A stretch of DNA of 41,360 bases from NCBI GenBank assembly GCA_930990975.1, contig CAKNRR010000012.1, positions 1 to 41,360 on the forward strand, given 5' to 3'. The first letter of the stretch is position 1. Each line of letters starts with the position of its first letter. The position numbers and the translations under genes were made by a program. The stretch is from an uncultured Clostridia bacterium. GTDB lineage: Bacteria > Bacillota > Clostridia > Christensenellales > UBA1242. Under the pieces are notes generated by a model. The model was not told the DNA's origin and did not search any database. It saw only the letters and a list, made by a program, of their open reading frames with translations. Below, one piece after another: positions 10,826-39,438 of this stretch.

Positions 10826-12300
10826 TTAATCTCGTTCTTTAGTATTTCTCTTACTTTTTCTTCTAACTCTTTGCTTTCGTCCATAAGGGTAAAGAGTTCA
10901 GTAACAGTTTGTTTTAATTGCTCATTAAGTTCTTCTTCAGATAATTGGTTGGAATTATCAACACCAACATATCTTCCAGGATTTAATGAATAATCTTTTT
11001 CTTTTATTTCTTCTAAACTTGCTTTATTGCAGAAGCCAAGTTTATTTTCATATCCTTCATCATTTTTATATTTATGATAAGTTTCTGCAATTAAGTCAAT
11101 TTCACTATCTTCAAACTTTCTTAATTTACGAGAAATCATTGTTCCAAGTTTAGTAGCATTTATAAATAAAACATCTGTATCAACTTTTGCTTTATTCAAA
11201 ATCCAACATTGAACGCTAATTCCTGTGTTAGAGAACATTTTGTCTGGCAAATCAATAATTGCATCAACTTTACCAGCTTCAAGCATTGCTTTTCTAACTT
11301 TTCTATCATCTTCAGTATTGCTTGTTGTAGCACCATTTGGCATAAGAATAGCAGCTTTTCCTTTTGGAGCAAGTTTAGCATACATAATTTCTAACCAAGC
11401 ATAGTTTGCGTTTTTTGTATCAGGTTTTCCAAACACCCATCTTGGGTCACCTTCAAGAGATGGTTTCCAATAATCTTTAATGTTATATGGTGGGTTGGCA
11501 AGAATAAAATCGGCACGGAGCGATTTATGTAAATCGTCAGTGAATGAATCTCCATTTCTTTCGCCTAAATTACCAGCAAGCCCACGAATAGCCAAATTCA
11601 TTTTTGCCATTTTCCAAGTTCCAGGATTGCTTTCTTGCCCATAGATTGAAATATCATCAACTTTTCCTCTATGCTCTTTAACGAACTTAGAACATTGAAC
11701 AAACATACCACCAGAACCACAGCAAGGGTCAAAAACTCTGCCTTTATATGGTTGCAGAATTTCAACCATCATTTCAACGATAGATTGTGGAGTAAAGAAC
11801 TCACCACCTTTTTGAGGGATATATGTTGCAAATGCGCCAATATAATATTCGTAGATTTGACCAAAGAAATCGCCATCAGCATCTTCCATTTTTAACTGAG
11901 TAGTAAAGAAATCTACAAGTTCACCCAAAGCAACCTTATCTAATTCACTCTTAGAATATGTTTTAGGAAGTATACCCTTTAATTCGTCATTCTTCTTTTC
12001 AAGTTCGTCAAACGCTGCGTCAATCTTTTGACCTAAACTTTCATCTTTAGAATATGATGCAATGTAAGGCCAAAGTGCTTTCTCTGGAACGATAAATACA
12101 TGATCTGCGATGTAATAATCCTCATCGTGTTCACGACCATCTCCAAATGCTTTTAATTCATTAAATTTAGCCAAATATTTATCACTAACATATTTTAAGA
12201 AAACTAAACCTAATACAACATTTTTGTAATCTGCTGGGTCGCACTTATCTCTTAATTTAACAGCAGCACCCCATAGCACTTTTTCATCAATTTTAGCCAT
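10822..12300 (-). CDS. hsdM: Type I restriction-modification methyltransferase subunit
   Basis: A 492-residue N6-adenine methylase of the HsdM family. An N-terminal helical domain is followed by SAM-binding motif I FDPCCGSGGMF and catalytic motif IV ILANPPYNIKDYW (NPPY). The C-terminus is a coiled segment (DESKELEEKVREIL). With HsdS it methylates adenine in the recognition site and protects host DNA. It starts at an ATG preceded by AAGGAG. It appears full length, though its last codons run into the 12-bp repeat. Without a complete S subunit at this locus, methylation would need an HsdS encoded elsewhere or a rearranged form of this locus. Confidence 0.95.
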   Translation of the reverse strand: MAKIDEKVLWGAAVKLRDKCDPADYKNVVLGLVFLKYVSDKYLAKFNELKAFGDGREHDEDYYIADHVFIVPEKALWPYIASYSKDESLGQKIDAAFDELEKKNDELKGILPKTYSKSELDKVALGELVDFFTTQLKMEDADGDFFGQIYEYYIGAFATYIPQKGGEFFTPQSIVEMMVEILQPYKGRVFDPCCGSGGMFVQCSKFVKEHRGKVDDISIYGQESNPGTWKMAKMNLAIRGLAGNLGERNGDSFTDDLHKSLRADFILANPPYNIKDYWKPSLEGDPRWVFGKPDTKNANYAWLEIMYAKLAPKGKAAILMPNGATTSNTEDDRKVRKAMLEAGKVDAIIDLPDKMFSNTGISVQCWILNKAKVDTDVLFINATKLGTMISRKLRKFEDSEIDLIAETYHKYKNDEGYENKLGFCNKASLEEIKEKDYSLNPGRYVGVDNSNQLSEEELNEQLKQTVTELFTLMDESKELEEKVREILKNEIK

Positions 12301-12442: not shown

Positions 12443-15400
12443 TTAATAAAATAATTTTTGAATTTCAATAATTGCCTTTTTATTAAACTGTTTTGTTGCA
12501 ACATCATACAAATATGGAATAATTACTACATCTTCATGCTTATCTATAAAAATTTCAGGATTTCCACGTGGTTTTAGAATATTAACTATTAGTGCCACAT
12601 CACCACCACAATCTTTTAATTTGTTTCTTACATCTTCCACTTTTGTAACCCTATTGAAATCTTTGTATCCACTAAAATTTTTAAAGTCAACAAATACCTT
12701 GTCCTTGTAAAAATCAAACTTCTCATATCTTTCATTGTTTCTAATTTTTTGAAGTTCTATATTCAAAAATTCTTTAAAAATAAACTCTCCAACTACTTCC
12801 CCCAAAGCCCCTTTGTAAATGCTGTTAAACATTTCAGGAGATAAGATATACTTATTAGGAATAAAGTTTGTTGCATAATCTTTTTCTATAAAGAAATCTC
12901 TTACTCTTGGTATCTGTAAAAGACCTTTTAAATTTGTGGTACTTTCCCCTATTAAATCACCAACAACAGAATTGAAACCAAACTTTTTATTCCTCTCATC
13001 ATAACTGTAACTTGTGTTCTGATTTGGCAATTCTATATATGCACTATATGTTGCTGTCGGAGAGTCTATTGTAGGATGTCTAAGCAATTGATCTCTCAAA
13101 CTTTCCCATTTATAAATATTATCATTCTTAAAATTCAAAAGAACTTTTATATAAGACTTACTAGACTTATTAATAAGCAATGCTTTATTTTCTAAATTAT
13201 TTTGACTATTATCTATACTTTCCTCAATTTTATCAAGAAATTTAGAAAATTCTGGATTGAGTAAAAGATGCTTATAATATTTTTTTACACCCTTTAATTC
13301 TTCTAACAACGCTTTATCATAATAAATATGAATGTCTTTAGATTTATTCTTTGTTCTACATATTCGTCCTACAGCTTGTTGTACAAGTTTAGCAGTATGT
13401 AATTTTAAATTTTTAGAGTTGGTTGGTGTAGAAAACGAATTAAATTTAATACCATGATAAGTTTCAAATCCTTCTTTTATATCTCTATAGGCCTCTTCAT
13501 TTGTAATATCACCAGACTCTTCCAATACTTTCACCTGGTATAAATATCTGATAAATTGCTCTTCTTCTATTATCTCGTTATTCATGTTTACAAAAACATT
13601 TGTTGGTTTATCTACATAGATAGCATCAAAATCTTTGTATTCATCTTGATATTCAAGATTATTAATGGAGACATAGTCAATCCCTTTAATGAAATTTCTT
13701 GGAATTTTATATTGTATATTTTGACCTGCACCTAATGTTTGATATGCCGAAACAAGAAAAACCTTCTCCCCATTACTTAATTTTTTTTCAATCTCTTTTT
13801 TCTTGTTGTCATAAGTTTCTATATCTCCAAATAAGCTATCAATATTTGCCACTATATTAAATTGCTTACATAATTCATCAAAAACACTTTTTGCAAAAAC
13901 AAAATCAAATGCGAAATCGTTTTCTTTCAAAAGTTTACTTGTTAAAAATAAGAATGAATACATGTGAGAGTTTTTCACAAATTCTCTCATACACAAAAAC
14001 AATTTTATATATCTGATTTTTATGTATGTTTTTAGATTCTCAAATTTATTTTTAATTATTTTTTGGATATCATTGCTAAAACTATTTATATGCTTTTCCA
14101 AATTTAATTCATCTACACTTATTGCTTCTAGTAATATATTTACTTTATCATATTCACTAGTTTGTCTATTAAAATATTCTTTTAATTCATCTCTTTCTTC
14201 CTTACTTAAATGTTTAAATTTTTTACCTAATTTGATTTCCAAATAATTTATATCAAAATTTCCTGTTGATGTTCTTAAAGATGAAGATGCAGAAATCCCC
14301 ACCACTTTGGCTTTATTACACAATCCTAAAAGGATTTTTTCTGGAGTTTCATCAACTGTCACATAATCTATTTTAGATTGTGTGTCATGCGTATCGCTAT
14401 CAATAATACTATAATATCTAAATCCTTTTTCATTACAAGAAAAATCTAAATCATCAGACAATGTATTACTGCTAAGCTCTCTAGTTTTCTTTCTTCTAAC
14501 AATAGCTTTCGTAAGATAATTTAAATATCTTCCTTCTATTCCAAATTCTGCAAGGACTGTCCTAACACATGCATCATCTGAAATTAAATTCAAATCTTCT
14601 TTTAATTCAATTTTGAGTTGTTTATAATTATTAGCAATAAAACCGACACCAATTTGAAAATAATTAATGAAGTTTTTTATGTCAAATAGAAGATCCTTCA
14701 GCTCATCTCTATCCTCTTTTTTATTTTCGACTGGTTCAATTTGATTTATTCTATCTGTTTTATTTGTCTTTAATAACAGATAATTATTTTTTGAAGGTAA
14801 TATACTTATAAACCTATAATCCTGAAACAAGAAATAGGCATCATCTTTTGGATTTCCAACCAACTTGTGTAAAAATTGCAAATTATATTTATCTTTGATT
14901 TCATCCGCCCTATTTTTAAATTTTTCTATTATTTCGCTAGGATTATAATAGTTCTCAAATATTTTCTTTTTATCAACATTGTACTGAGAAGGAGTCATTA
15001 ATTTTTTTGTAAAATCACAAACAGTAAGTCCTGCATATATCATATGAAAAAGATCTAACATTCCAATTTTATTATTTAAAGAGCTTCTTATTATATTATT
15101 TAAAATATTTTCTTTTGCCGAATCAAACTCGTCAATAAAAATTATTGCATCTCTAACAATGTCATCACTTAAAATAGTATATGAAGGTTTGATTATCGTG
15201 GAGTTCATTGCTAAAAATTTGTCAACGGTCATAAAAATTATCTTAGCGCTATCTGTCATTACAGAAGGATATAATTTAATAATCCATGGATTTTCCTCTT
15301 GAACAAATTTTAATCTTTCTTCATAGTTCCTTTTTTCACCTTTTTCATTATATATAACATAAGATTCTAAATTAGATCTAAATTTAGGTTCCCACTCTTC

Positions 15401-26975: not shown

Positions 26976-27002
26976 AAAAAATAGAGCCTTAACGGCTCTA
27001 TG
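26976..27002 (-). terminator. Terminator of the large RNA
   Basis: On the minus strand ATAGAGCC pairs with GGCTCTAT (26981-26988 with 26994-27001) around a 5-base loop, followed by a run of six Ts. Confidence 0.85.
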
Positions 27003-27556
27003 AAGACAGCAGAATTAGTAAACCTTGTGTCATAGGTTCGGTCGGATTTCCCATTCTCGTACTTAATGTCGCCATATAAGCAGTTTCCTTTTAAACAAGA
27101 CATAACACCGAATCGCCACTCAGAACACACTATAATCCTATTTCTGCCAGCTTTTAGCAACAGTCTAGAAGTTTTCCTTGACAACAATACTTACTATTCG
27201 CTTGTTTTGCAAACATAGTTTCATAGAAAGATGTAAATCAATCTTGGCCAAAATCAATTTACATGTATAATCTAATCCCCAGTATGTTCACTCAAAGCAG
27301 GCTACTCTGCACACGACTTTTACCGCATTGCAGGTTCTCCCCCAGAGAGTGGAAATTAAATTTGCACCCTGTTGGGTCTCCGCGAAAATTGGGTCGCCAG
27401 CTATATGCCATTATAACCTGCCCAATAATCTTAACTTCCAGCACAAACCCCAATTTGGGCAATCAAAGCTTGCACCAGAAACTTCATCGATGTGCCCTTC
27501 GACGCTATTGCTTCGTCCTCTTAGTAAGCAAAGTTGACTAGAATACTGCATCTTTA
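26976..27556 (-). ncRNA. Large structured non-coding RNA of about 580 nt, ROOL-like
   Basis: A full transcription unit with no plausible ORF: promoter TTGCAT-N17-TATAAT (27563-27591) and terminator at 26976-27002. Its base composition is richer in G+C than its surroundings, and many local stems are visible: TTGCTT/AAGCAA near the 5' end, TGCCCAA/TTGGGCA, ACCC-AACA-GGGT, and ATGTAAAT/ATTTACAT (27231-27264). The two transcript ends can partly pair (AAGATGCAGTATT with AATTCTGCTGTCTT). It is too long for 6S and SRP RNA, and RNase P and tmRNA signatures are absent. Length, complexity and the nearby tRNA fit the ROOL class (about 580 nt, often near tRNAs or in phages). The RNA gene is well supported; the class is inferred. 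Confidence 0.75.
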
Positions 27557-27562
27557 ATATAT

Positions 27563-27591
27563 ATTATAGCATAACTTTTTGAAAAATGCAA
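27563..27591 (-). promoter_or_regulatory. Promoter of the large RNA
   Basis: On minus: TTGCAT (complement of 27586-27591), 17 bases, consensus TATAAT (complement of 27563-27568). Predicted start near 27556. Confidence 0.75.
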
Positions 27592-27908: not shown

Positions 27909-27983
27909 TCCCCAGTAGCTCAGTGGTGGAGCGCTCGGCTGTTAACCGATAGGCCGTAGGTTCGAATCCTACCTGGGGAGCCA
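27909..27983 (+). tRNA. tRNA-Asn (anticodon GTT), integration target
   Basis: A complete 75-base tRNA with acceptor TCCCCAG/CTGGGGA, D-arm AGCTCAGTGGTGGAG, anticodon GTT at 27941-27943, T-loop GTTCGAATC and an encoded CCA end. The serine integrase gene on the other strand runs 64 bases into it, so the attachment site lies in or beside the 3' half and the tRNA survived integration intact. Confidence 0.97.
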
Positions 27984-29817: not shown

Positions 29818-30441
29818 TCATAAATTACTTTGAAACGCGATTGCTTTCCCTAATATGTGAATATTATTTAATTCTTCTCCTTCGTATATAAATGGTTGAT
29901 AATTTTTATTAGCAGGCATTAGCATTATTCTATTTTTATTGGGCTCATAAAAAACTTTTTTTAAAGTAACTTCATCATTTACGAGAACGACAGCAATTTC
30001 TCCATTTTCAACAATTTCTTGCTTTTTAATAAAAACCAAATCACCATCATAGATTCTTGCATCAATCATTGAATCACCTTTTGCCCATAATGCAAAGTCT
30101 GGTTTAATATTACCTATTGTATCAACATAACATTCCAAATGCTCTTCAGCATATATTGGTTTACCACAAGCAACAGTTCCAAGAACAGTAATTTTGATTT
30201 TTGATAATGGAACAATATCTATTTTATTAGCTCTATTTACATCCCACCCCATAAGATATTCTGGTGTAGTATGCAAAGCCTCCGCAAGTGGTTTTAAAAT
30301 TGATGTAGGCATATTTTCTATATCTCCATTTTCATAACGATAAATAGTCGCTCTATTCTTTCCAATTTTATTTGCCAAATCATCTATACTAATGTTGTAT
30401 TTTTGCCTTAGCATGCGTATTCTTTGAGATATTTCCGACAT
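29818..30441 (-). CDS. CI/LexA-type repressor with S24 peptidase domain
   Basis: A 207-residue repressor (MSEISQRI; AGGGGG six bases upstream). The N-terminal HTH_XRE domain is at 1-65 (LANKIGKNRATIYRYENG). The C-terminal S24/LexA domain has the self-cleavage region LGTVACGKPI, with a Cys-Gly bond as in UmuD, the nucleophile Ser in KGDSMIDARI, and the general-base Lys in NDEVTLKKVF. Damage-induced RecA would trigger self-cleavage and lift repression. It lies divergent to a Cro-like gene across a region with matching palindromes, and it co-transcribes with the membrane protein and integrase. Confidence 0.95.
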   Translation of the reverse strand: MSEISQRIRMLRQKYNISIDDLANKIGKNRATIYRYENGDIENMPTSILKPLAEALHTTPEYLMGWDVNRANKIDIVPLSKIKITVLGTVACGKPIYAEEHLECYVDTIGNIKPDFALWAKGDSMIDARIYDGDLVFIKKQEIVENGEIAVVLVNDEVTLKKVFYEPNKNRIMLMPANKNYQPFIYEGEELNNIHILGKAIAFQSNL

Positions 30442-30460
30442 ATAACCCCCTTTTTTCTTA

Positions 30461-30489
30461 ATTTTAACACTTTTATTGCAATTTTGCAA
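30461..30489 (-). promoter_or_regulatory. Lysogenic (repressor) promoter
   Basis: On minus: TTGCAA (complement of 30484-30489), 17 bases, TAAAAT (complement of 30461-30466). The -35 lies inside operator palindrome 30476-30489, so the repressor can control its own synthesis. Confidence 0.65.
30476..30489. promoter_or_regulatory. Operator palindrome O1
   Basis: TTGCA-ATTT-TGCAA, a 14-bp site of the family TYGCA-N4-TGCRA, overlapping the -35 of the repressor promoter. Confidence 0.7.
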
Positions 30490-30517
30490 CAATTAAAAAT
30501 AAAAATTAAAAAAATAT

Positions 30518-30605: not shown

Positions 30606-30818
30606 ATGATTGATAAAGAAAAATTAAAATCAGCAATTTCTAAAAATGGTTTAACAATAACTGTTTTATCGCAAAAATTAAAAATAAATCCTTCTACTTT
30701 TTTTAGAAAAATCAACAAAGATGCCTTTTTAATCAAAGAGGCTTATCAAATTTGTAAAATATTAAATCTTTCAAATCAAGATGCAATTGATATTTTTTTT
30801 AGCAAAAATGTCGCATAA
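30606..30818 (+). CDS. Cro-like HTH protein
   Basis: A 70-residue protein consisting almost entirely of a helix-turn-helix domain (LTITVLSQKLKINPSTFFRKINK). AGGAGGTG precedes the ATG. Its position opposite the CI-type repressor and the shared palindromes indicate a Cro-like repressor of the lysogenic promoter and activator of the early switch. The gene ends 6 bases before the fourth palindrome copy. Its length is typical of phage Cro/excisionase-type regulators. Confidence 0.8.
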   Translation: MIDKEKLKSAISKNGLTITVLSQKLKINPSTFFRKINKDAFLIKEAYQICKILNLSNQDAIDIFFSKNVA

Positions 30819-31146: not shown

Positions 31147-31290
31147 ATGCAAAAAGATATAGCACACCCTTCAATTATTACTTTTATCGGTTGGTGTGAA
31201 TTAATGGAAATTAAACCTTATAAAATTGAAAGTATTTTAGAGTACAGAAGAATCTCTAAAAATCTAGGAGGTCCATCATGTTTAAAATAA
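31147..31290 (+). CDS. Very small early protein (47 aa)
   Basis: An ORF with a strong AAGGAG six bases before the ATG (MQKDIAHPSIITFIGWCELM...RRISKNLGG). Its 3' end overlaps the next start by 13 bases, showing translational coupling. No homologue is recognised. Confidence 0.55.
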   Translation: MQKDIAHPSIITFIGWCELMEIKPYKIESILEYRRISKNLGGPSCLK

Positions 31291-31517
31291 CTGCAAAATT
31301 TCAGAACGGAATTAAAAAATCGTATCTAACCAACTCTCTTTCAAAAAAGAGTTTTTGGGAAATTATCAACGAAGCTGAAGATGATTCTATTGATATTTCA
31401 ATTGTCAAAATTACTGCAGAGGGCAAGCGACTGCTTCTATACGATAGCAAAGTAATCAAAAAAATGATGGAGGTGCTAAATGAAGAATTATGTAGTAATT
31501 CAATCAGCCCTATTTAA
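31278..31517 (+). CDS. Small early protein of unknown function
   Basis: A 79-residue protein (MFKITAKFQNGIKK...) starting in the end of the preceding small gene, with AGGAGG upstream. It has a predicted beta-alpha-beta start and a helical end. Its own 3' end overlaps another small gene by 38 bases. It belongs to a compressed run of phage-type early genes. Function unknown. Confidence 0.6.
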   Translation: MFKITAKFQNGIKKSYLTNSLSKKSFWEIINEAEDDSIDISIVKITAEGKRLLLYDSKVIKKMMEVLNEELCSNSISPI

Positions 31518-31614
31518 AGACCTTGAAATGGAATATACCGCACTTCAAGAAAAAATCAAGCACCTTCAAGCAAAACGGCGTAGAGCTGGAAACTCTATAG
31601 GATTGAAAATTTAA
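31480..31614 (+). CDS. Very small basic helical protein (44 aa)
   Basis: Starts at ATG 31480, preceded by GGAGGTG inside the previous gene (MKNYVVIQSALFKDLEMEY...). Central heptad-like helix (LEMEYTALQEKIKHLQAKRRR) and a basic end. Ends 15 bases before the next start. Unknown function. Confidence 0.55.
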   Translation: MKNYVVIQSALFKDLEMEYTALQEKIKHLQAKRRRAGNSIGLKI

Positions 31615-31628
31615 AAGGAGAAATAACA

Positions 31629-32819
31629 ATGTCTGAAGAAATGAAAAAATTCCTAAAAATCTATTCTCCAGTTTTCGTTATATGTTTATTACTCTTATGC
31701 TGGCTTATGTATTATTATCTATTTTTAGATTCAAAAATATCAATAACGACAGCATATTTAGATGATGCTACTTATTCTGATGACGAAGTCTTTTTTATGG
31801 AAATAAACTATTATTCAAACGAAAATGGAAATGGACAAGAAGTATTTGAAATAAAATTCAATTATTATACAGATACAAGAATCCCTGAACAGGATGAAGA
31901 CGGAACCTTTGATTCTAAATATATGTATTCAACAGGTGCTCAATTTTTAGGTGGTATACAAACTAAAAAGAAAGCAAAATCAACATTTACAACCTATACT
32001 CAATATTATTCACTTCAAAATGGTTACTATTACGATACTGAAATGGGAGGAACTTCTTTTTCATCATTAAAAAATCAATCAATCATTGACCAATCTTCTT
32101 GGTTATATGATATTAATGGTAAATTATGCAAAATTTGGACAAGAGGAAATGTTCAAACTGGCAAGACATTATGGGTAAAAGATTATATTAAGATTGATAC
32201 ATCATATTTTATTTTAGCGTTATACAATACCATTAAATCTTTAGATGAGGGTGAAAATATATTTGCTTTAAACTTGTCTGAATACTTTTTTGTTACACTT
32301 CAAGATAGTGATGGAACTTTTGGAACAAAGCCAACAGATGATGAAAATTATTTGTATGCAAACATAAAAGTCAATGTAAACAATAACGGAATGATTAATG
32401 CTAACCAATCATTATTTGGAATTGTTGAAGAAGATGCTGATTGGTCGTTATATGGCTCAAACTCTGACGAGTATTGGCAAGTAAGGACTGAATACAATCT
32501 TACTTTAAATGATTTTATTGTCGTTTCTGAAAATCAAAAATTCTATTTGGATATAAAACAATCTTGCTTGAATTATTTAAAACCATTCAACTACCTAAAT
32601 ATCATTATAACAATAAACCTAGATGAAGTTAAAGTTGCATCTACACAAGTTGATATTCAAGGATTTACACAAGAATTATATTCTTCTCTTAATGTTTATA
32701 AAATTGTCTTGCACTCAACTACAGAACGGGAGTTTGAAATACTGGATAAAAATATCCAAATTGAGAAGGATGATTTAATTTCTATTAATTATCCAGAACA
32801 GGAGGTGCAATATGCTTGA
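31629..32819 (+). CDS. Single-pass membrane protein with large extracellular domain (envelope block 1)
   Basis: A 396-residue protein. Residues 1-11 are basic cytoplasmic (MSEEMKKFLK), 14-32 are one hydrophobic anchor (VFVICLLLLCWLMYYYLFL), and the remaining 360 residues are a beta-rich, Asn/Tyr/Asp-rich extracellular domain. No known family is recognised. AAGGAG precedes the ATG, and its end overlaps the next gene by 8 bases. It opens a block of four coupled genes, all with N-terminal membrane segments. In this phage-like element they may build virion or cell-surface structures; no function is proven. Confidence 0.7.
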   Translation: MSEEMKKFLKIYSPVFVICLLLLCWLMYYYLFLDSKISITTAYLDDATYSDDEVFFMEINYYSNENGNGQEVFEIKFNYYTDTRIPEQDEDGTFDSKYMYSTGAQFLGGIQTKKKAKSTFTTYTQYYSLQNGYYYDTEMGGTSFSSLKNQSIIDQSSWLYDINGKLCKIWTRGNVQTGKTLWVKDYIKIDTSYFILALYNTIKSLDEGENIFALNLSEYFFVTLQDSDGTFGTKPTDDENYLYANIKVNVNNNGMINANQSLFGIVEEDADWSLYGSNSDEYWQVRTEYNLTLNDFIVVSENQKFYLDIKQSCLNYLKPFNYLNIIITINLDEVKVASTQVDIQGFTQELYSSLNVYKIVLHSTTEREFEILDKNIQIEKDDLISINYPEQEVQYA

Positions 32820-33441
32820 TTGGTTGTCTGGCGATAAAATATGGGACACATTAATAATCATTGCGGTTATTGCCGCTATAGCACTAGCTGTATATGCGAT
32901 GATTAGATACGAAAATGCTCGACCTTATGTCGTTGCAATATTTTGCCTGGTTTGGTTCGGTGGAGGTGTGTTTAGCGCCTACACAATGATTGATTATTAT
33001 TCTAGGGTTAGAAATCAAACTTATGGCGAACTGCAGGATTATGACCCTTATGAAGATTTTAACTTTTTTGAATACGATTTAACAACAATAAACTTTTATC
33101 CAAAAGAAGATGGGACTTATTATTTTGAGCAAGAATACTCAACATCAATAGAATTTGAAGGCAACAATCAATACACACTGCTTTTAAATAACTCTCCTTG
33201 CAATAAAACAACATCATCTTATGGTCGATTAATGGGACAAACAACACTATATTTTTACGATGTTGATAATTCAGAAGAAGCAAATATCAATTTAGATATA
33301 ACCCTCACATTTTATTCTTCCTCGTTGAATATTTCAATTGACACCGACGCAAACGACTCAAACATCGGCTTTTTAAGGGAATACACTTACTGCAATGGTT
33401 TTAATTTGAGAATTATTGAAACTGTTTATAAAGGAGGATAA
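32812..33441 (+). CDS. Membrane protein with two N-terminal TM helices (envelope block 2)
   Basis: A 209-residue protein. Two hydrophobic helices (about 10-30, TLIIIAVIAAIALAVYAM, and 37-58, YVVAIFCLVWFGGGVFSAYTM) are joined by a short basic loop. They are followed by a beta-rich domain of about 150 residues. It overlaps the gene before it and ends two bases before the next start. The topology (two TMs, external C-terminal domain) is unusual for a soluble phage structural protein and fits a membrane-assembled particle or a surface complex. Not recognised as a family. Confidence 0.65.
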   Translation: MLDWLSGDKIWDTLIIIAVIAAIALAVYAMIRYENARPYVVAIFCLVWFGGGVFSAYTMIDYYSRVRNQTYGELQDYDPYEDFNFFEYDLTTINFYPKEDGTYYFEQEYSTSIEFEGNNQYTLLLNNSPCNKTTSSYGRLMGQTTLYFYDVDNSEEANINLDITLTFYSSSLNISIDTDANDSNIGFLREYTYCNGFNLRIIETVYKGG

Positions 33442-33443
33442 TA

Positions 33444-34586
33444 ATGAAAAAAGCACTTGTTATTTTTATTGTTTTACTATTAGCATCAACAGGATTAACA
33501 ATATATTTTGGTTTAACCAGCAAAGATGCCTATAACAGAGGCTACAATGAAGGAACTGGTGATATAACCGCTTACGAGCAAATGATTGAAGAATACAAAA
33601 ATGATATTTTAAAAATGAGCAGCGAGTTAGAAAATGCCAAAACTGAACTCACAGAAACTATAACAAAATTAAATAATGCTTTGGAACAAAACTCTCAAGA
33701 CAAACAAACAATCGCAGACCTAACTACACAAATTGAAGACTTGACTAGCCAGATATCAACATTGCAAAATGAAATTAAAGAATTAGAGCTCAAGCTTGAA
33801 GCTTATGCAAAATATGAAGGGGTTGCAGTCAGTGCGAATTTCTATGTTGACGGAAAGCCTTATTCAGTCGACATTATCAATATTGAAACTGATGTTGTCG
33901 AATTCCCTACAAACATTACTGTAGAAGGCACTAGGTTTGCTGGGTGGAGCCTAGATGGACAAACTGTTATACAAAACACAGAAAATTACACAATTACTGA
34001 AGATACAGATTTTTACGCAGTTTTAATGTGTGATGTTGATTTTAGTATAAACGGAACTAATACATCAAAATCAGTAATTAAAGGCACAATGTTAAATTCT
34101 ATTCTTCCAGATGTTCCTGACTATGATAATTATATTTTTGAAGGTTTTTATCAAGGCAAGAATAAAATTGAAGAAGATATAGCAATAACTCAACACATGT
34201 CTTTAACTGCTAAATTTAGAGAATTCCTTGACATAAAATTATCTGCAGAGCAAGCAAGTGGCGCTGTCAATGCTGGTAGTATCTTAATTACATGTGATTA
34301 TGATGACATAGATTTTGATAATGGTTTATTCGGGTTAGTTTTTGACTTAGCAATCAATGGAGAGTTTATTAAAGACTATGACGATTATATTTTTAATGTT
34401 AACGGTAATGAGGTTTATATTTCTTCTCTTCTTGCCACATCATCTAAAGCCGTTCTTTCAATTTATTCAAAAAATTATGGAACACTTACCGAAGATGATA
34501 TTGAAGATACAATTAATATAATTTTAAACGACATAAGTATACGCGTTTATAACAACAATTTAACGGAGGTGATTAATGAAAAATAG
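33444..34586 (+). CDS. Membrane-anchored coiled-coil protein with InlB-like repeats (envelope block 3)
   Basis: A 380-residue protein. An N-terminal signal anchor (LVIFIVLLLASTGLTIYF, about 5-23) is followed by a long coiled coil from about 42 to 123 (repeating Leu/Ile heptads, LTTQIEDLTSQISTLQNEIK). Two InlB B-repeat-like units follow (about 135-255), recognisable from GTRFAGWSLDGQ, DTDFYAVL and FEGFYQGKNKI. A C-terminal beta domain (IKLSAEQASGAVNAGSI) looks cohesin-like or Ig-like. These domains are common in cell-surface proteins of gut Firmicutes. AGGAGG precedes the ATG, and the end overlaps the next gene by 11 bases. Confidence 0.75.
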   Translation: MKKALVIFIVLLLASTGLTIYFGLTSKDAYNRGYNEGTGDITAYEQMIEEYKNDILKMSSELENAKTELTETITKLNNALEQNSQDKQTIADLTTQIEDLTSQISTLQNEIKELELKLEAYAKYEGVAVSANFYVDGKPYSVDIINIETDVVEFPTNITVEGTRFAGWSLDGQTVIQNTENYTITEDTDFYAVLMCDVDFSINGTNTSKSVIKGTMLNSILPDVPDYDNYIFEGFYQGKNKIEEDIAITQHMSLTAKFREFLDIKLSAEQASGAVNAGSILITCDYDDIDFDNGLFGLVFDLAINGEFIKDYDDYIFNVNGNEVYISSLLATSSKAVLSIYSKNYGTLTEDDIEDTINIILNDISIRVYNNNLTEVINEK

Positions 34587-36357
34587 TGTAAAAGGAATAT
34601 TAAAAACATGCGTAGCATTAGGACTATGCGCTGTGTTAGCCGTTGGAGGCTATCACTTATACAAACATTGGGACAAAGTAACTGATTGGTTTAATGGCAT
34701 CTTCCATAAAGAAGACCCAGCACCTGACAAACCTACACAGCCAGAGGGCGAACAAATAAAAGACTTTACTTTCTCTGGCAACCAAATAACAGGATATATA
34801 GGCTCAGAAGTAGTCCTGGACAACCTACCAACATCTTACTCAATGCAAGTTGGAGAAGTTGAGGAAGTCCTTGAAATCACTGTTGAAGATATGTCTGACG
34901 AAGATGCCATGAGAGAGCTTTCTGAAAAAGTTGAAAATGGTTCTTTCTATTGCACTCCTAATGATAATGAACGCTTTTTCTCATCAACTTATGAGAGTTG
35001 GGAGGAATATATGGCTGAGCACTATCCAGGAGATGAAGAAACAAAAGCTTTCCCTATGAAGTTTGAATTCTGTTCTGTAACTTACCTTACAGGTGATGAT
35101 ATTAAAGTTACAAAAATTGCTGATGGTGCTTTCTCTGGCAATACAATTCTCTCAAAAATAGTTATTCCAAATCAGATAAATGAGATTGGTCAACAAGCCT
35201 TTGAAAATTGCGAAAATTTGACTGAAATCAATATACCTGAAGGAATTACTGAGATTAAGTATCAAACCTTCTATGGGTGCAAAAATCTTGAAAATATCGC
35301 GCTTCCAGATACTATTACCTCAATTGGTTATTCTGCATTTGACCAGACAGCAATAAAATTATTAACCATACCAGCAAATGTATCAAATCTTGATATGCTT
35401 GTTTCAGACAAGTCAGCGCTTGAAGAATTACACATAAAATCAACTTTAATTAATCCGCAACAAATAACCTCTCTTGCCTCGTTCGCATCAAATTTAAAAA
35501 TCTATGTGCCCGATGATTATTATTTAGCAAATTATGAAAGCTATTTTGAGCTATATTTAGATAATATATTTCCAATCAATGGGACTTATCCAGATGAACC
35601 AGAACCTGAGCCAGAACCCGAGCCATCGGGCGAAATAGTCAAAATGGACAATTTAGATAATAGAGGAACTACAACAATTTATCTTAACTCAGATGTTGAA
35701 ACTTTTACTATGCCTCTAGTTATTGGAACTAAATATATTTACAGCGATGTAAGAACATACAATTCAGTTGATGATTTAATAGCTGACAAGGATGATTTAA
35801 TAAGCTCATATCAAGGATGTAGCTATTGCTACACTGAACCAAATGGAAGTGATTTTGTGTTATTTTCTTTCGGCGACTCATCTTCAATAGAATATACTGT
35901 TGAACAATGGATATCTCTTAATAATCAGTTTCCATTTAAGGTAGCAAAATTTGATATTGAATATTACGATATGACAAATGTTTCTTATGAAGACATACAA
36001 AAATTTGTTGAAGATAATACAATAACAGATGTATCAAAAACTACTTATTCTGACTATTTTTCAGGCATGTCATTAGTTGATTTTACATACGCTACTAACT
36101 TAAAAGAAATAATTTTGCCTGACAATCCAACAGGAACAAGTCTTATACATTCAAATCAATTTGCAACAGCAAAAAATGTTAATGTAATTTTAGAATCAAC
36201 ACGGTTTTTAACTATTTATGATAATCAACCTGTACATGCTGATGAAAGTGTTAATTTTTATGTTCCTGATGAACTTTATGAACAATATGTCGCTAATGAG
36301 TATTGGCAAGAACTTGCCAACCAAATTCATCCGATGAGTGAGTTAGCAGAGGGTTAA
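34576..36357 (+). CDS. Membrane-anchored BspA-like LRR protein with duplicated domains (envelope block 4)
   Basis: A 593-residue protein. A hydrophobic anchor at about 8-26 (TCVALGLCAVLAVGGYHLY) is followed by a first unit with BspA-type leucine-rich repeats (LRR_5; IVIPNQINEIGQQAFENC, INIPEGITEIKYQTFYGC). A PEPEPEPEPS linker near 345-355 joins it to a second unit that repeats the same layout (compare GSFYCTPND and SYCYTEPNG, both followed by FPMKFEF or FPFKVAKFD). BspA-like LRRs act in adhesion, so this is the best candidate for a receptor-binding protein of the element. The GGAGGTG site lies inside the upstream gene. Confidence 0.75.
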   Translation: MKNSVKGILKTCVALGLCAVLAVGGYHLYKHWDKVTDWFNGIFHKEDPAPDKPTQPEGEQIKDFTFSGNQITGYIGSEVVLDNLPTSYSMQVGEVEEVLEITVEDMSDEDAMRELSEKVENGSFYCTPNDNERFFSSTYESWEEYMAEHYPGDEETKAFPMKFEFCSVTYLTGDDIKVTKIADGAFSGNTILSKIVIPNQINEIGQQAFENCENLTEINIPEGITEIKYQTFYGCKNLENIALPDTITSIGYSAFDQTAIKLLTIPANVSNLDMLVSDKSALEELHIKSTLINPQQITSLASFASNLKIYVPDDYYLANYESYFELYLDNIFPINGTYPDEPEPEPEPEPSGEIVKMDNLDNRGTTTIYLNSDVETFTMPLVIGTKYIYSDVRTYNSVDDLIADKDDLISSYQGCSYCYTEPNGSDFVLFSFGDSSSIEYTVEQWISLNNQFPFKVAKFDIEYYDMTNVSYEDIQKFVEDNTITDVSKTTYSDYFSGMSLVDFTYATNLKEIILPDNPTGTSLIHSNQFATAKNVNVILESTRFLTIYDNQPVHADESVNFYVPDELYEQYVANEYWQELANQIHPMSELAEG

Positions 36358-36399
36358 TACCCTCTTGCTAATACCTACACAATTTAAAAGGTGGTGAAA

Positions 36400-36885
36400 A
36401 TGGTATACCAAAGTTTTAACATAAATTTTGCAAAAGTATATGGGCTTGCTGAGGCAATCATTTTTGATAATATTGTTTTTTGGACCTCAAAAAATCGAGC
36501 AAACAAACGCCACTTTATCAACGGAAGGTATTGGACTTACAATACTGGACAAGCATTATCTACATTATTTCCATACTTAACAGATTATCAAATAACTAAA
36601 GCTCTTAAACATTTAGAAAGTGAAAACTTAATACTAATTGATAATTTTAACAAACAAAAAACAGATAGAACGCGTTGGTTTGCATTATCTGATTTCGCAA
36701 TTTCCATTTTGCGAAAGCAAGAAATGGAATTTTTGAAATCAAAAAATGGTTTTTGCGAAAGCAAAGAATGTATAGATAAATTTAATATATTAAATATATC
36801 TAATACAAATAATTACCCAGATTATACCCAAGAAAGAAATATAAAAGAAAGAAATAAAAAATCTTTCTATTCAGATGAGAGGTAG
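36400..36885 (+). CDS. Phage replication-initiator-like winged-helix protein
   Basis: A 161-residue protein starting at the ATG at 36400 (AGGTGGTGA before it; a GTG at 36391 is also in frame). FNINFAKVYGLAEAIIFDNIVFWTSKNRAN followed by RYWTYNTGQALSTLFPYLTDYQITKALKHLESENLI is a winged-helix pattern. I associate it with Firmicutes phage replication modules, usually located just before a DnaC-like loader, as here. It probably binds the replication origin and recruits the loader. The C-terminal part is polar and low complexity. Confidence 0.75.
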   Translation: MVYQSFNINFAKVYGLAEAIIFDNIVFWTSKNRANKRHFINGRYWTYNTGQALSTLFPYLTDYQITKALKHLESENLILIDNFNKQKTDRTRWFALSDFAISILRKQEMEFLKSKNGFCESKECIDKFNILNISNTNNYPDYTQERNIKERNKKSFYSDER

Positions 36886-36888
36886 TTT

Positions 36889-37719
36889 ATGAATTTAATT
36901 GATTACGGAATTAAGCTTCGTGCTGATGAGTATGCAAAAGACAGTATGATTTACTGCAAGAAGTGCCATACTCAGCGAATCTTTGTGAGTGAAGATAAAA
37001 AGTTTGTAGTTCGTTGTCTTTGCGAGTGTCAAAGCGAAGAAAAAGAAAAGCAACTTGAACTTGAAAAACAAAAGCAAAGGCTCGAAAAAGTTAAACAGTT
37101 AAAAGAAATGTCTTTGCTTGGTCGAAAGTATAAAAATTCAACCTTTGAAAACCTTGACTTAAATCGACCTGAAAGTTTTTTAAAAGCTGTTAAAAGATGC
37201 CAGGCATATTGCAAAGCCTGGGACGAAATAAAAAATAAAGGTTATGGGTTATACCTTTACGGCGATGTCGGCACGGGCAAGACTGAACTTATGGCTTGCA
37301 TTTGCAACTACTTAACAGAAAAATTTGTGCCAGTGATTATAACAAATTTTTTAGAGATTTCTAAAAAACTTCGAGCATCATACACAAATGAACTTGAAAC
37401 TGAAAATGAAATCATTGAGAAACTTTCTAGAGTGGACTTGTTGATACTTGATGATGTTGGTGCAGAAAAACTTAAAAAGAAAGATAATACTGACTCATTT
37501 ATGCAAGAAAAGATATATGACATTATCAACCGAAGATATATTAATCAAATGCCTACCCTGTTTACTAGCAATTATTGCATCCAAGATTTGCTGGATGAGC
37601 GAGGTTTTGAAGAAAGAACAGTTGACAGAATCGCAGAGATGTCAAATGCGGTTATTAAAGTTGATGGAGATAGTTATCGAGAAATCGTATGCAAGAGAAA
37701 AACAAAGGAGGCTTTATGA
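36889..37719 (+). CDS. DnaC/IstB-like helicase loader ATPase
   Basis: A 276-residue AAA+ protein. The N-terminal zinc-finger-like Cys cluster is YCKKCHTQRIF and CLCECQ, followed by a basic coiled coil (EEKEKQLELEKQKQRLE). Walker A is LYGDVGTGKTELMA near 122-135, Walker B is LLILDDVGAEK near 183-193, and sensor-1 and Arg-finger regions follow (LFTSNYCIQDLLDERGFEERTVDRI). Such proteins load the host replicative helicase at the phage origin. The stop overlaps the next ATG by 4 bases (ATGA). Confidence 0.9.
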   Translation: MNLIDYGIKLRADEYAKDSMIYCKKCHTQRIFVSEDKKFVVRCLCECQSEEKEKQLELEKQKQRLEKVKQLKEMSLLGRKYKNSTFENLDLNRPESFLKAVKRCQAYCKAWDEIKNKGYGLYLYGDVGTGKTELMACICNYLTEKFVPVIITNFLEISKKLRASYTNELETENEIIEKLSRVDLLILDDVGAEKLKKKDNTDSFMQEKIYDIINRRYINQMPTLFTSNYCIQDLLDERGFEERTVDRIAEMSNAVIKVDGDSYREIVCKRKTKEAL

Positions 37720-37949
37720 AGGCAGTAGAAAAGTTATATATTCCAGCAAGGACAATCAGACTAAGGAAAAAACCTACACAAACAAGAGAAAGATTTTGTA
37801 CCGATGGAAAAGAACATCTTCGCATTTATAAAAGCCTTGATACATTAAATCAATTCATGCCAGAAGAATTTGACTCAATTTATGTTTATGAGTTAACAAA
37901 AATAATCACTTCGAAAAAGGAGGATTTGCATGAAAATAGCATTTTGTAA
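37716..37949 (+). CDS. Small basic protein of unknown function
   Basis: A 77-residue protein starting at 37716 (AAAGGAGG upstream, ATGA overlap with the loader gene). The N-terminal half is very basic (IPARTIRLRKKPTQTRERF) and the rest mixed. It overlaps the next gene by 20 bases. Probably a replication-module accessory protein; no family recognised. Confidence 0.6.
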   Translation: MKAVEKLYIPARTIRLRKKPTQTRERFCTDGKEHLRIYKSLDTLNQFMPEEFDSIYVYELTKIITSKKEDLHENSIL

Positions 37950-38196
37950 AATTTATGATAACCAAATATATTACTTAGCTTCTGTTAAAAAAATAAGGAA
38001 AATTATAAAAAATAACCCATATTGCTTAAAAGATATTTTAGTAGTTCAAGATTTTTTAGGTAAAATTGATTTTTTTGTCAAAGATGTTGTTCTTGCAGAA
38101 ACTTTCAAAAATGTTCATAAAGCAAGGATGTATGAACTACGGCATTGCGTCAGTCCCACATTAAAACTCATAGATTTGGACAAACTGGAGGCTTAG
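37930..38196 (+). CDS. Small protein upstream of the Zot-like ATPase
   Basis: An 88-residue protein (MKIAFCKIYDNQIYYLASVKKIRK...) with AAAGGAGG before the ATG, in a run of coupled genes. It lacks a TM segment and any recognised motif. Three bases separate it from the ATPase, so a joint role is likely. Confidence 0.6.
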   Translation: MKIAFCKIYDNQIYYLASVKKIRKIIKNNPYCLKDILVVQDFLGKIDFFVKDVVLAETFKNVHKARMYELRHCVSPTLKLIDLDKLEA

Positions 38197-38199
38197 CCT

Positions 38200-39438
38200 A
38201 TGGAAAAATCCAAAATTGAAGCTAAGATAATAAAGACATATAAACTTCCCTTGATTGATAGAATAGCACTCCACTACAACACTTTTAAGTATCTCCTTTT
38301 AGCGTTTGTAGTGTTTGTGCCGGTTATAACTTTACTTGCGATAAATAACTTTCATTGGCAATGGTTTTTGTATCTCATTCCACTTGAAATATTGTTTATT
38401 TACATAATTGTTCGAGCATTGTTATTTCTACGAGATTTAAGAAAATATAAGTCCTGGGGTCGTTCAATGATGAACAATCCAGACCATGCTACTATTTATT
38501 CAGGTCCACCAGGAACAGGCAAATCACTCTCAGCAGGACATGCTGTAAATTGGATGCAGAAAGGCTCTTGGGATAAACTTCAATTTGAATATTTTTGTCT
38601 TATGGGGAAAATGCAGACTAAAAATTATCAAATGTCTGAGGACGATAAAGAAATCTACGAAGCATATCAATATTTTATCAATCACGAAGGTGTGCCTTGT
38701 CTTGCTACAAATGTTGGTTTTTATTCTAAAATTTATAAACGGTTTTCATATAAACTTGGTCCGTCTTATCTTAAGCAAGAGCGTAGAGCACCATATAGAC
38801 TTGCTGGCTGGTATGATGAAATCGGCACAGTTTTTAACCCTGAACTTTCAAATGACGCAGCCGATAAAATGAAATCTCTTGAAATGGCTGATATGTCGAG
38901 ATTTTGTAGACAATTTGCTGAATTTAGATTTATTGGAACGGAACAAGAAGGAAGCAATGTTTATAAAAATGTGCGTAGAGTTGTTGCAAGGAATCGTGAA
39001 TATCTTTCAATAGAAACGATTTTTAAACCTAAGTTTTTATATTGGATTTTTGAAAAAATGAAAAAGCACTTTCTTTATCCATTTTTTGGAAAAGGTATGA
39101 ATATACATAAGGCTAAAGTTTGGGGGCAATTCATGCAAAGATTTAAGAAGTTTATCGATAGCGTAGGCTTCTATAAACTTCGTTATAAGGATTTTACATC
39201 ATTTGAGGGAGCTGGTGTTGCTTGTTTGACTGATGAAAAAGGTGGAGCAATTCTTTATTTGCCATGTTGTGGAGAGTTTAAGTATGATACGCGTGCTTTT
39301 CGTTGGGCATATAAGGCAAGGAAGTTGCCTATAATGATGCAAGTCTTTAATAGCATGGATTTGTCAGAGAAAGAGGCTGAGGCATTCTTACGCTCGTCAT
39401 ATCCAAAGATAAAAGAAGAAGAGAAAAAGAAAAAGTAA
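38200..39438 (+). CDS. Membrane-anchored Zot/HerA-like P-loop ATPase
   Basis: A 412-residue protein. Two N-terminal hydrophobic helices (about 27-48, YLLLAFVVFVPVITLLAINNF, and 52-76) are followed by a P-loop ATPase. Walker A is IYSGPPGTGKSLSAGH near 102-117, and a Walker-B-like strand is LAGWYDEIG near 203-212. The conserved block FCRQFAEFRFIGTEQEG follows. This resembles Zot-family ATPases (the pI morphogenesis motor of filamentous phages) and the wider FtsK/HerA group. In classical pI the TM helix follows the ATPase, whereas here the TMs precede it. GGAGGCTTAGCC precedes the ATG. It probably moves DNA or assembles particles at the membrane. Confidence 0.55.
   Translation: MEKSKIEAKIIKTYKLPLIDRIALHYNTFKYLLLAFVVFVPVITLLAINNFHWQWFLYLIPLEILFIYIIVRALLFLRDLRKYKSWGRSMMNNPDHATIYSGPPGTGKSLSAGHAVNWMQKGSWDKLQFEYFCLMGKMQTKNYQMSEDDKEIYEAYQYFINHEGVPCLATNVGFYSKIYKRFSYKLGPSYLKQERRAPYRLAGWYDEIGTVFNPELSNDAADKMKSLEMADMSRFCRQFAEFRFIGTEQEGSNVYKNVRRVVARNREYLSIETIFKPKFLYWIFEKMKKHFLYPFFGKGMNIHKAKVWGQFMQRFKKFIDSVGFYKLRYKDFTSFEGAGVACLTDEKGGAILYLPCCGEFKYDTRAFRWAYKARKLPIMMQVFNSMDLSEKEAEAFLRSSYPKIKEEEKKKK

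Follow-up and report, generated by a model that had tools for sequence, protein, structure and literature searches.

A membrane-protein module that accompanies Zot-like ATPases in candidate inovirus-like elements of gut Clostridia

Introduction

Filamentous phages of gut Clostridia are already known. According to one report, Enterocloster and Hungatella, which are Gram-positive Clostridia, carry prophages with a pI gene that are 6.5–8.5 kb long (one is 16 kb) and are flanked by direct repeats; filaments were seen by transmission electron microscopy and secreted inoviruses of Enterocloster are described (PMC10061712). A second paper describes a clade from the gut whose genomes carry Zot and measure 5.6–9.4 kb (PMC8530359). 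A survey based on pI detection gives as inovirus criteria a pI/Zot-type ATPase, for which Zot is the closest Pfam domain, and structural proteins of 30–90 amino acids (aa) with one transmembrane (TM) segment; pI proteins with N-terminal membrane domains are also accepted there (PMC6813254). Here we analyse a stretch of 41,360 bases, called the window, which spans the whole of contig C12 (CAKNRR010000012.1) in the genome of an uncultured Clostridia bacterium (1.41 Mb, 18 contigs). It holds a mobile element in which four neighbouring genes, A to D, encode membrane-anchored proteins, with an ATPase gene, ATP1, further downstream.

We propose, with a probability of roughly 0.6, that A to D form the structural and extrusion module of an integrative element of inovirus-like, or filamentous-phage-like, type. 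Because the module travels with a phage-type DNA-extrusion ATPase, its proteins are likely to form a particle or channel for exporting the element, with no ordinary phage capsid involved. This reading is supported by the coupling of the four genes, the constraint on A to C, the linkage of A and B with the ATPase, the tRNA-derived repeats in relatives and the mosaicism of D.

Four coupled membrane-anchored proteins

Genes A to D are separated by gaps of −8, +2 and −11 nucleotides (nt), and a purine-rich ribosome-binding site precedes each gene. A preliminary description of this DNA had seen four coupled genes with N-terminal TM segments, and a hydrophobic segment is indeed present in each product (residues 15–33 in A, 5–23 and 40–58 in B, 4–22 in C and 5–23 in D). 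The description needs a correction in that B has two membrane helices. The hallmark proteins A and B lack a convincing Pfam or PHROG match, A giving zero matches and B weak ones (best E 0.042). The coiled coil and InlB-like repeats described earlier for C are both there, the repeats being of the Listeria-Bacteroides/InlB type (PF09479, E 1.2e-10, two stretches). In D, a BspA-type leucine-rich repeat (LRR) region covers residues 163–273 (PF13306, E 3.6e-27); the duplication of this region that had been suggested is not borne out, the LRR being detected in the first half of the protein only.

Copies of the four genes are also present on contig C4 of the same genome. Between the C12 and C4 copies, the rates of synonymous (dS) and nonsynonymous (dN) substitution are 0.185 and 0.014 for A, 0.042 and 0.011 for B, and 0.099 and 0.020 for C, the changes in these three genes being mainly synonymous. 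A to C are under purifying selection, and the four genes are real and tightly coupled; the dS and dN values exclude the possibility that A to D are chance open reading frames (ORFs). D is a mosaic, with dS 0.633 and dN 0.282. Its residues 1–320 resemble the C4 copy (nucleotide identity 0.84–0.97, with one 40-residue block at 0.69), residues 361–560 resemble the copy on contig C8 (0.81–0.93) and are unlike C4 (0.39–0.56), and the last 33 residues are equidistant from the C4 and C8 copies (0.73 and 0.71). The tip of D thus appears to have been exchanged between copies, a pattern expected of a part that contacts a receptor, which may be its role.

Ten window proteins (31278–39438) were scanned against Pfam and PHROGs, and C alone among them matched PHROG families of phage head, lysis or tail type at E < 0.001, for example phrog_10 (major head protein, E 5.1e-5) over the coiled coil. 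These matches cover the coiled coil and are read as composition matches. D gave a marginal tape-measure match (phrog_28, E 0.055) located over its membrane segment. Caudoviricetes genes (terminase, portal, HK97-type capsid, tail) were accepted neither among the ten window proteins nor among the scanned proteins of C8, which for the window agrees with what the preliminary description had noted of capsid, terminase and tail genes.

Linkage of A and B with Zot-like ATPases

We searched 297 genomes of the host family for the module and for two families of Zot-like ATPases, ATP1, to which the ATPase of the window belongs, and ATP2. A was found in 97 genomes (three marginal) and ATP1 in 32. Both A and B are present in all of the 60 A loci; B adjoins A directly downstream on the same strand in each of the 61 places where A occurs in these loci, and in 55 of these places an ATPase gene follows A on that strand at a distance of no more than 9 kb. 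ATP1 and ATP2 are never found together in one A locus. Since 20 of the 60 loci had entered through the ATPase search or came from the window's own genome, the other 40, which were fetched for A alone and were chosen by us from the A-positive hits, are the fairer test of linkage. A Zot-like ATPase gene, or a part of one, is present in 38 of these 40 loci. The ORF search found ATP1 or ATP2 in 37 (as a contig-end fragment in L140 and split in two in L127), and in L131 an ATP2 gene was located by genome search (G098:C2:82401-83210). The remaining two loci, L119 and L122, run into a contig end. At the level of whole genomes, ATP1 or ATP2 is present in 89 of the 97 A-positive genomes vs 47 of the 200 A-negative ones (Fisher p 5.6e-31, uncorrected for genome relatedness). 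The suggested linkage with a Zot-like ATPase is therefore well founded, but the four proteins do not form the unit that had been envisaged. The conserved unit is A and B plus the ATPase; C and D differ between elements, occur as fusions or are absent, and C is apparently fused to B in some elements, judged by length and reading.

Several ATPase copies in the family contain in-frame stops, so that some of the elements must have decayed. The ATPase has eight named relatives, which stem from metagenome-assembled genomes; seven of them are titled Clostridia or Firmicutes. The eighth, a 4.4-kb contig filed under Candidatus Avigastranaerophilus (L076, DVJT01000194.1), carries an 88 %-identical ATPase that is truncated at the contig end, and this contig is probably misbinned.

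These counts bear on the possibility that A to D are cargo, that is, surface adhesins or superinfection or defence proteins riding on an element that a helper phage packages. The layout of integrase, repressor and replication genes would resemble that of phage satellites, and the adhesin-type repeats of C and D would suit such a role. However, free variation is expected of cargo, and neither the constant adjacency of A and B nor the ATPase downstream of them in 55 of 61 places agrees with this. In addition, a packaging gene was not recognised among the scanned proteins, apart from weak P-loop and coiled-coil matches. We therefore consider a cargo role very unlikely.

Comparison of the ATPases with Zot

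The ATP2 proteins of L116, L141 and C8 match phrog_197, which is Zot-like, with E 2.3e-6, 1.2e-6 and 9.8e-4, respectively, and ATP2 of L116 also gives a sub-threshold match to Pfam Zot (13.7 bits, cutoff 20.3). The ATP2 profile recovers the Zot of bajarodino virus 12 with E 2.2e-59. Profile comparison of ten ATP2 proteins with M13 gene I, B5 ORF8 and Pf1 ORF424 taken together gave 79.5 % over 58 columns around the Walker B and a distal motif. ATP1 and ATP2 match each other over 233 columns (96.2 %, E 2.7e-9), whereas the two DnaC controls in the profile comparison reached 59 % over 61 columns and 65 % over 21, in the P-loop region only.

Related elements and their boundaries

The same genome contains three further elements with A, located on contigs C4, C8 and C6. 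In the C4 element A to C are nearly identical to those of the window and the integrase is different; it is likewise truncated by a contig end. The C8 element (L073) is complete, with exact 56-nt tRNA-Leu repeats spaced 15,735 bp apart. Capsid, terminase and tail families were not recognised in it (10 proteins by Pfam and 10, mostly the same, by PHROGs), and among the matches listed (25 of 124 families) for 75 proteins of five bounded elements none is structural. As far as this complete sister and the family-wide linkage can tell, neither a capsid, terminase and tail module nor a lack of linkage between the proteins and the ATPase was found, the two outcomes that the preliminary description had named as telling against it. 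Repeats of tRNA type, picked by eye, bound the element in 23 of the 60 A loci and span 10.6–16.3 kb.

The motif TTGACGAAGATT is repeated near both ends of the C8 element (L073 3211–3260 and 18705–18754), possibly as integrase arm sites, and similar paired motifs lie close to the element ends in L132, L133 and L139. A tandem duplication of an element with a period of 8562 is seen in L141 (5923–19901) and L161 (1 to about 4650), the first copy ending within the repressor gene.

Analysis of elements with ATP2 reveals several features of filamentous phages. The order in L116 is small one-helix proteins, A, B, a very long C, ATP2, two small ORFs and a replication protein (Rep). Reps are of G2P type (PF23343, E 5.6e-11) or, in L141, of CRESS type (PF02407, E 5.5e-11). 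Of the 60 A loci, 17 carry G2P- or CRESS-type Reps, 27 carry DnaD-like initiators, none carries both and in 16 neither was found; ATP1 is absent from all 17 loci with such Reps. Two families of small one-helix proteins lie upstream of A, c9 in 23 loci and s1 in 21, with at least one of them in 32 of the 60 loci. The claim of an undescribed system must be qualified accordingly. Elements of this make-up were not found described in the literature to the extent that it was accessible, subscription papers and preprints being outside the scope of the search, but the kind is not wholly undescribed, because sister elements carry a Zot PHROG, G2P-like and CRESS-like Reps and small one-helix proteins.

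Four ATP1 elements without A (L055, L056, L061 and L067) have instead a protein of 537–662 aa with a C-terminal membrane segment, which on reading looks like a phage adsorption protein. In L041, a gene weakly similar to the DNA polymerase sliding clamp (11491–12108; PF00712, E 0.0028) lies upstream of a PcfJ-like gene (13274–14773; PF14284, E 4.3e-37).

Layout of the element in the window

The element starts at a tRNA-Asn gene, with the recombinase and the repressor first, and continues as a rightward run of genes until the contig end at 41360 truncates it (Table 1). A to D are placed within this run and are followed by the DnaD-like and DnaC-like genes, two small ORFs and ATP1. The recombinase ORF terminates within the tRNA-Asn gene, and a tRNA-Asn gene (209–283) likewise overlaps the recombinase in the related element L041. 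The recombinase clusters with those of L041, L042, L049 and L053. Its final codons (27920–27983) are the antisense of the tRNA-Asn gene, so the C-terminus of the protein may be shaped by integration. An OLE RNA (RF01071, 390.5 bits) is located on the minus strand at 26987–27570, some 340 bases ahead of the likely attachment site at tRNA-Asn.

Table 1. Features of the element in the window, and large membrane proteins of related elements that lack A and B (positions in the latter are those of the named locus)
Feature	Position	Strand	Basis
tRNA-Asn, likely attachment site	27909–27983	+	ARAGORN; Rfam tRNA 27909–27980
Serine recombinase (integrase), 526 aa	27920–29500	−	ORF; named serine recombinase by sequence reading
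Helix-turn-helix (HTH) repressor, LexA-like by eye	29818–30492	−	ORF; HTH cluster c1
Small HTH protein, Cro-like by eye, opens the rightward run	30606–30818	+	ORF with ribosome-binding site; homologue in L042
Conserved small protein c14, 47 aa	31147–31290	+	Cluster common to C4 (L007), C8 (L073) and L045
Basic small protein c15, 44 aa, without TM, adjoins A upstream	31480–31614	+	Family in 10 loci
Protein A, 396 aa: N-terminal TM and beta-rich ectodomain; module hallmark	31629–32819	+	ORF; model mean pLDDT 80.5
Protein B, 209 aa: two N-terminal TM helices and beta domain; module hallmark	32812–33441	+	ORF; model mean pLDDT 78.8
Protein C, 380 aa: TM, coiled coil, InlB-type repeats, C-terminal domain	33444–34586	+	PF09479
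Protein D, 593 aa: TM, stalk, BspA-type LRR region, apparently exchangeable C-terminal tip	34576–36357	+	PF13306
DnaD-like replication initiator	36391–36885	+	phrog_11233 E 4.4e-31; phrog_6493 E 2.2e-16
DnaC-like helicase loader	36889–37719	+	phrog_50 E 7.1e-61
ATP1, remote Zot-like P-loop ATPase, two N-terminal TM helices (31 and 59)	38200–39438	+	Profile-profile match to ATP2
Accessory small genes, reaching the contig end	39746–41276	+	Five ORFs; t1, t3 and t4 with relatives in other loci
Large protein, C-terminal membrane segment(s), upstream of ATPase	L055 11221–12834		
Large protein, C-terminal membrane segment(s), upstream of ATPase	L056 6380–8275		
Large protein, C-terminal membrane segment(s), upstream of ATPase	L061 14050–16038		
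Large protein, C-terminal membrane segment(s), upstream of ATPase	L066 4135–6975		
Large protein, C-terminal membrane segment(s), upstream of ATPase	L067 5800–7773		

Weight of the evidence and possible mechanism

Several observations weigh against an inovirus-like module. Concerning the ATPases, the one in the window has no Pfam Zot match and matched no phage record. Compared directly by profile with three known pI proteins, ATP1 scores low (11 %), and the ATP1 hidden Markov model ranks a DnaC control (14.0 bits) above known pI, with 0.9 bits for M13, −1.7 for Pf1, 3.7 for B5 and 2.9 for the bajarodino Zot. Since these direct comparisons are weak, the descent of ATP1 from Zot depends on ATP2 as a bridge. 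Within ATP2, the member in L124 is without any PHROG match and two members have additional weak matches among PHROGs annotated as head morphogenesis or terminase small subunit. A Zot-like ATPase is present without A in 47 genomes, and the only phage record matched by ATP2, that of bajarodino virus 12, lacks A and B. A itself gave no clear structural match, tblastn of one A protein matched no phage record, and scans of IMG/VR, seeded from short motifs, gave no match. The replication genes of the window are DnaD/DnaC-like and include no rolling-circle (HUH) initiator, which is typical of inoviruses. The chief gap is that a small coat protein is not recognised in the window's element. Both c9 and s1 are missing from 28 of the 60 A loci, the window's element included, and when the neighbourhood of A was searched for ORFs of 25–110 aa with a ribosome-binding site, the window, L007, L041 and L042 yielded no small one-helix coat candidate. 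Two hydrophobic ORFs were dropped by this filter, one of 40 aa immediately before A in L042 and one of 45 aa further downstream in L041.

Since no small coat protein was recognised, a membrane-enveloped particle and a DNA pump that depends on cell contact are also conceivable. In the first case, A and B would be membrane spikes and scaffold of a new enveloped or vesicle-like virion that buds with membrane and is not a filament, in the style of plasmaviruses or pleolipoviruses. Plasmaviridae and Pleolipoviridae have small genomes and membrane-anchored virion proteins, and A and B, which are present in every A locus and are membrane-anchored with outer domains, may be comparable. The span of the bounded relatives (about 10.6–16.3 kb) is also consistent with such a virion, as is the lack, close to A in the window, of any candidate for a small coat protein that has a ribosome-binding site. 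However, the sister elements carry Zot-type ATPases, rolling-circle Reps and small one-helix proteins as filamentous phages do, which makes an enveloped virion unlikely.

In the second case, A to D would be the contact apparatus of a donor cell, and the ATPase would pump DNA into a neighbour without a free particle. The adhesin-like nature of C and D, the exchange of the D tip, the membrane-bound ATPase and the failure to recognise a capsid in the scanned proteins of C8 are in favour of this. On the other hand, the ten scanned proteins of the window gave no recognisable relaxase, the Reps of sister elements are of replication type, and we know of no system that works in this way with a Zot ATPase. 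Capsidless transfer of this kind is thus quite unlikely.

An inovirus-like element could work as follows. The recombinase would excise the element from the tRNA-Asn site, and the excised DNA would be replicated in theta-type fashion, aided by the DnaD- and DnaC-like proteins. The membrane-bound Zot-like ATPase would then push the DNA across the membrane, and A and B may assemble there on or around it; C and D, the longer outer proteins, may extend beyond the wall to make contact with the target cell. A bolder version, which we regard as doubtful, is that the module represents a new DNA-export architecture of Gram-positive bacteria, in which a Zot-lineage ATPase is combined with helicase loading of DnaD/DnaC type and there is no small major coat protein. 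A and B would form the particle or contact channel and C and D its contact arms, and this architecture would be common in one family of gut Clostridia with small genomes and missed by Zot-based detectors.

Of the genomes searched in one family of gut Clostridia, roughly one in three has the module (97 of 297). The module probably escapes present methods of virus detection, because A and B are without convincing Pfam or PHROG matches and IMG/VR gave no match. It suggests that an element can pair export of filamentous-phage type with theta-type replication genes and with structural proteins of a very different kind, and the way in which such particles would cross the Gram-positive wall becomes open to experiment.

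Comparison with known systems

In the annotation of Propionibacterium phage B5 (Paulinoviridae, Tubulavirales), the small ORFs 3–5 precede a large ORF6 and a short ORF7, and ORF8 and ORF9 come next. This order parallels the small one-helix proteins, A, B, C, ATP2 and Rep of L116; the counterpart of ORF8 in phage Philemon is annotated as a morphogenesis protein. However, the B5 genome is only 5.8 kb long, its annotation names no integrase and ORF8 is weak against the ATP2 profile (13.4 bits).

The annotated block VII-IX-VIII-III-VI-I of M13 (Inoviridae) likewise consists of small proteins and a larger protein and then the assembly protein. M13 differs in that gene I is weak against the ATP2 profile (11.9 bits) and not meaningful against that of ATP1 (0.9 bits), and in that its replication protein is the product of gene II, whereas the window's element has DnaD/DnaC-like genes.

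Bajarodino virus 12 (PQ006185, filed as Inoviridae) has a Zot homologous to ATP2 (29 % identity, E 8e-17), and an integrase and a repressor are annotated in it. It has no meaningful match to A or B, but has a protein of 541 aa with N- and C-terminal TM segments. The inoviruses of Enterocloster and Hungatella, which were found with a pI-based detector, are likened here by description. Because the window's element shows neither a Pfam Zot match nor a rolling-circle Rep, we do not file it as an inovirus. Without claiming strict membership, we consider that it probably works like one.

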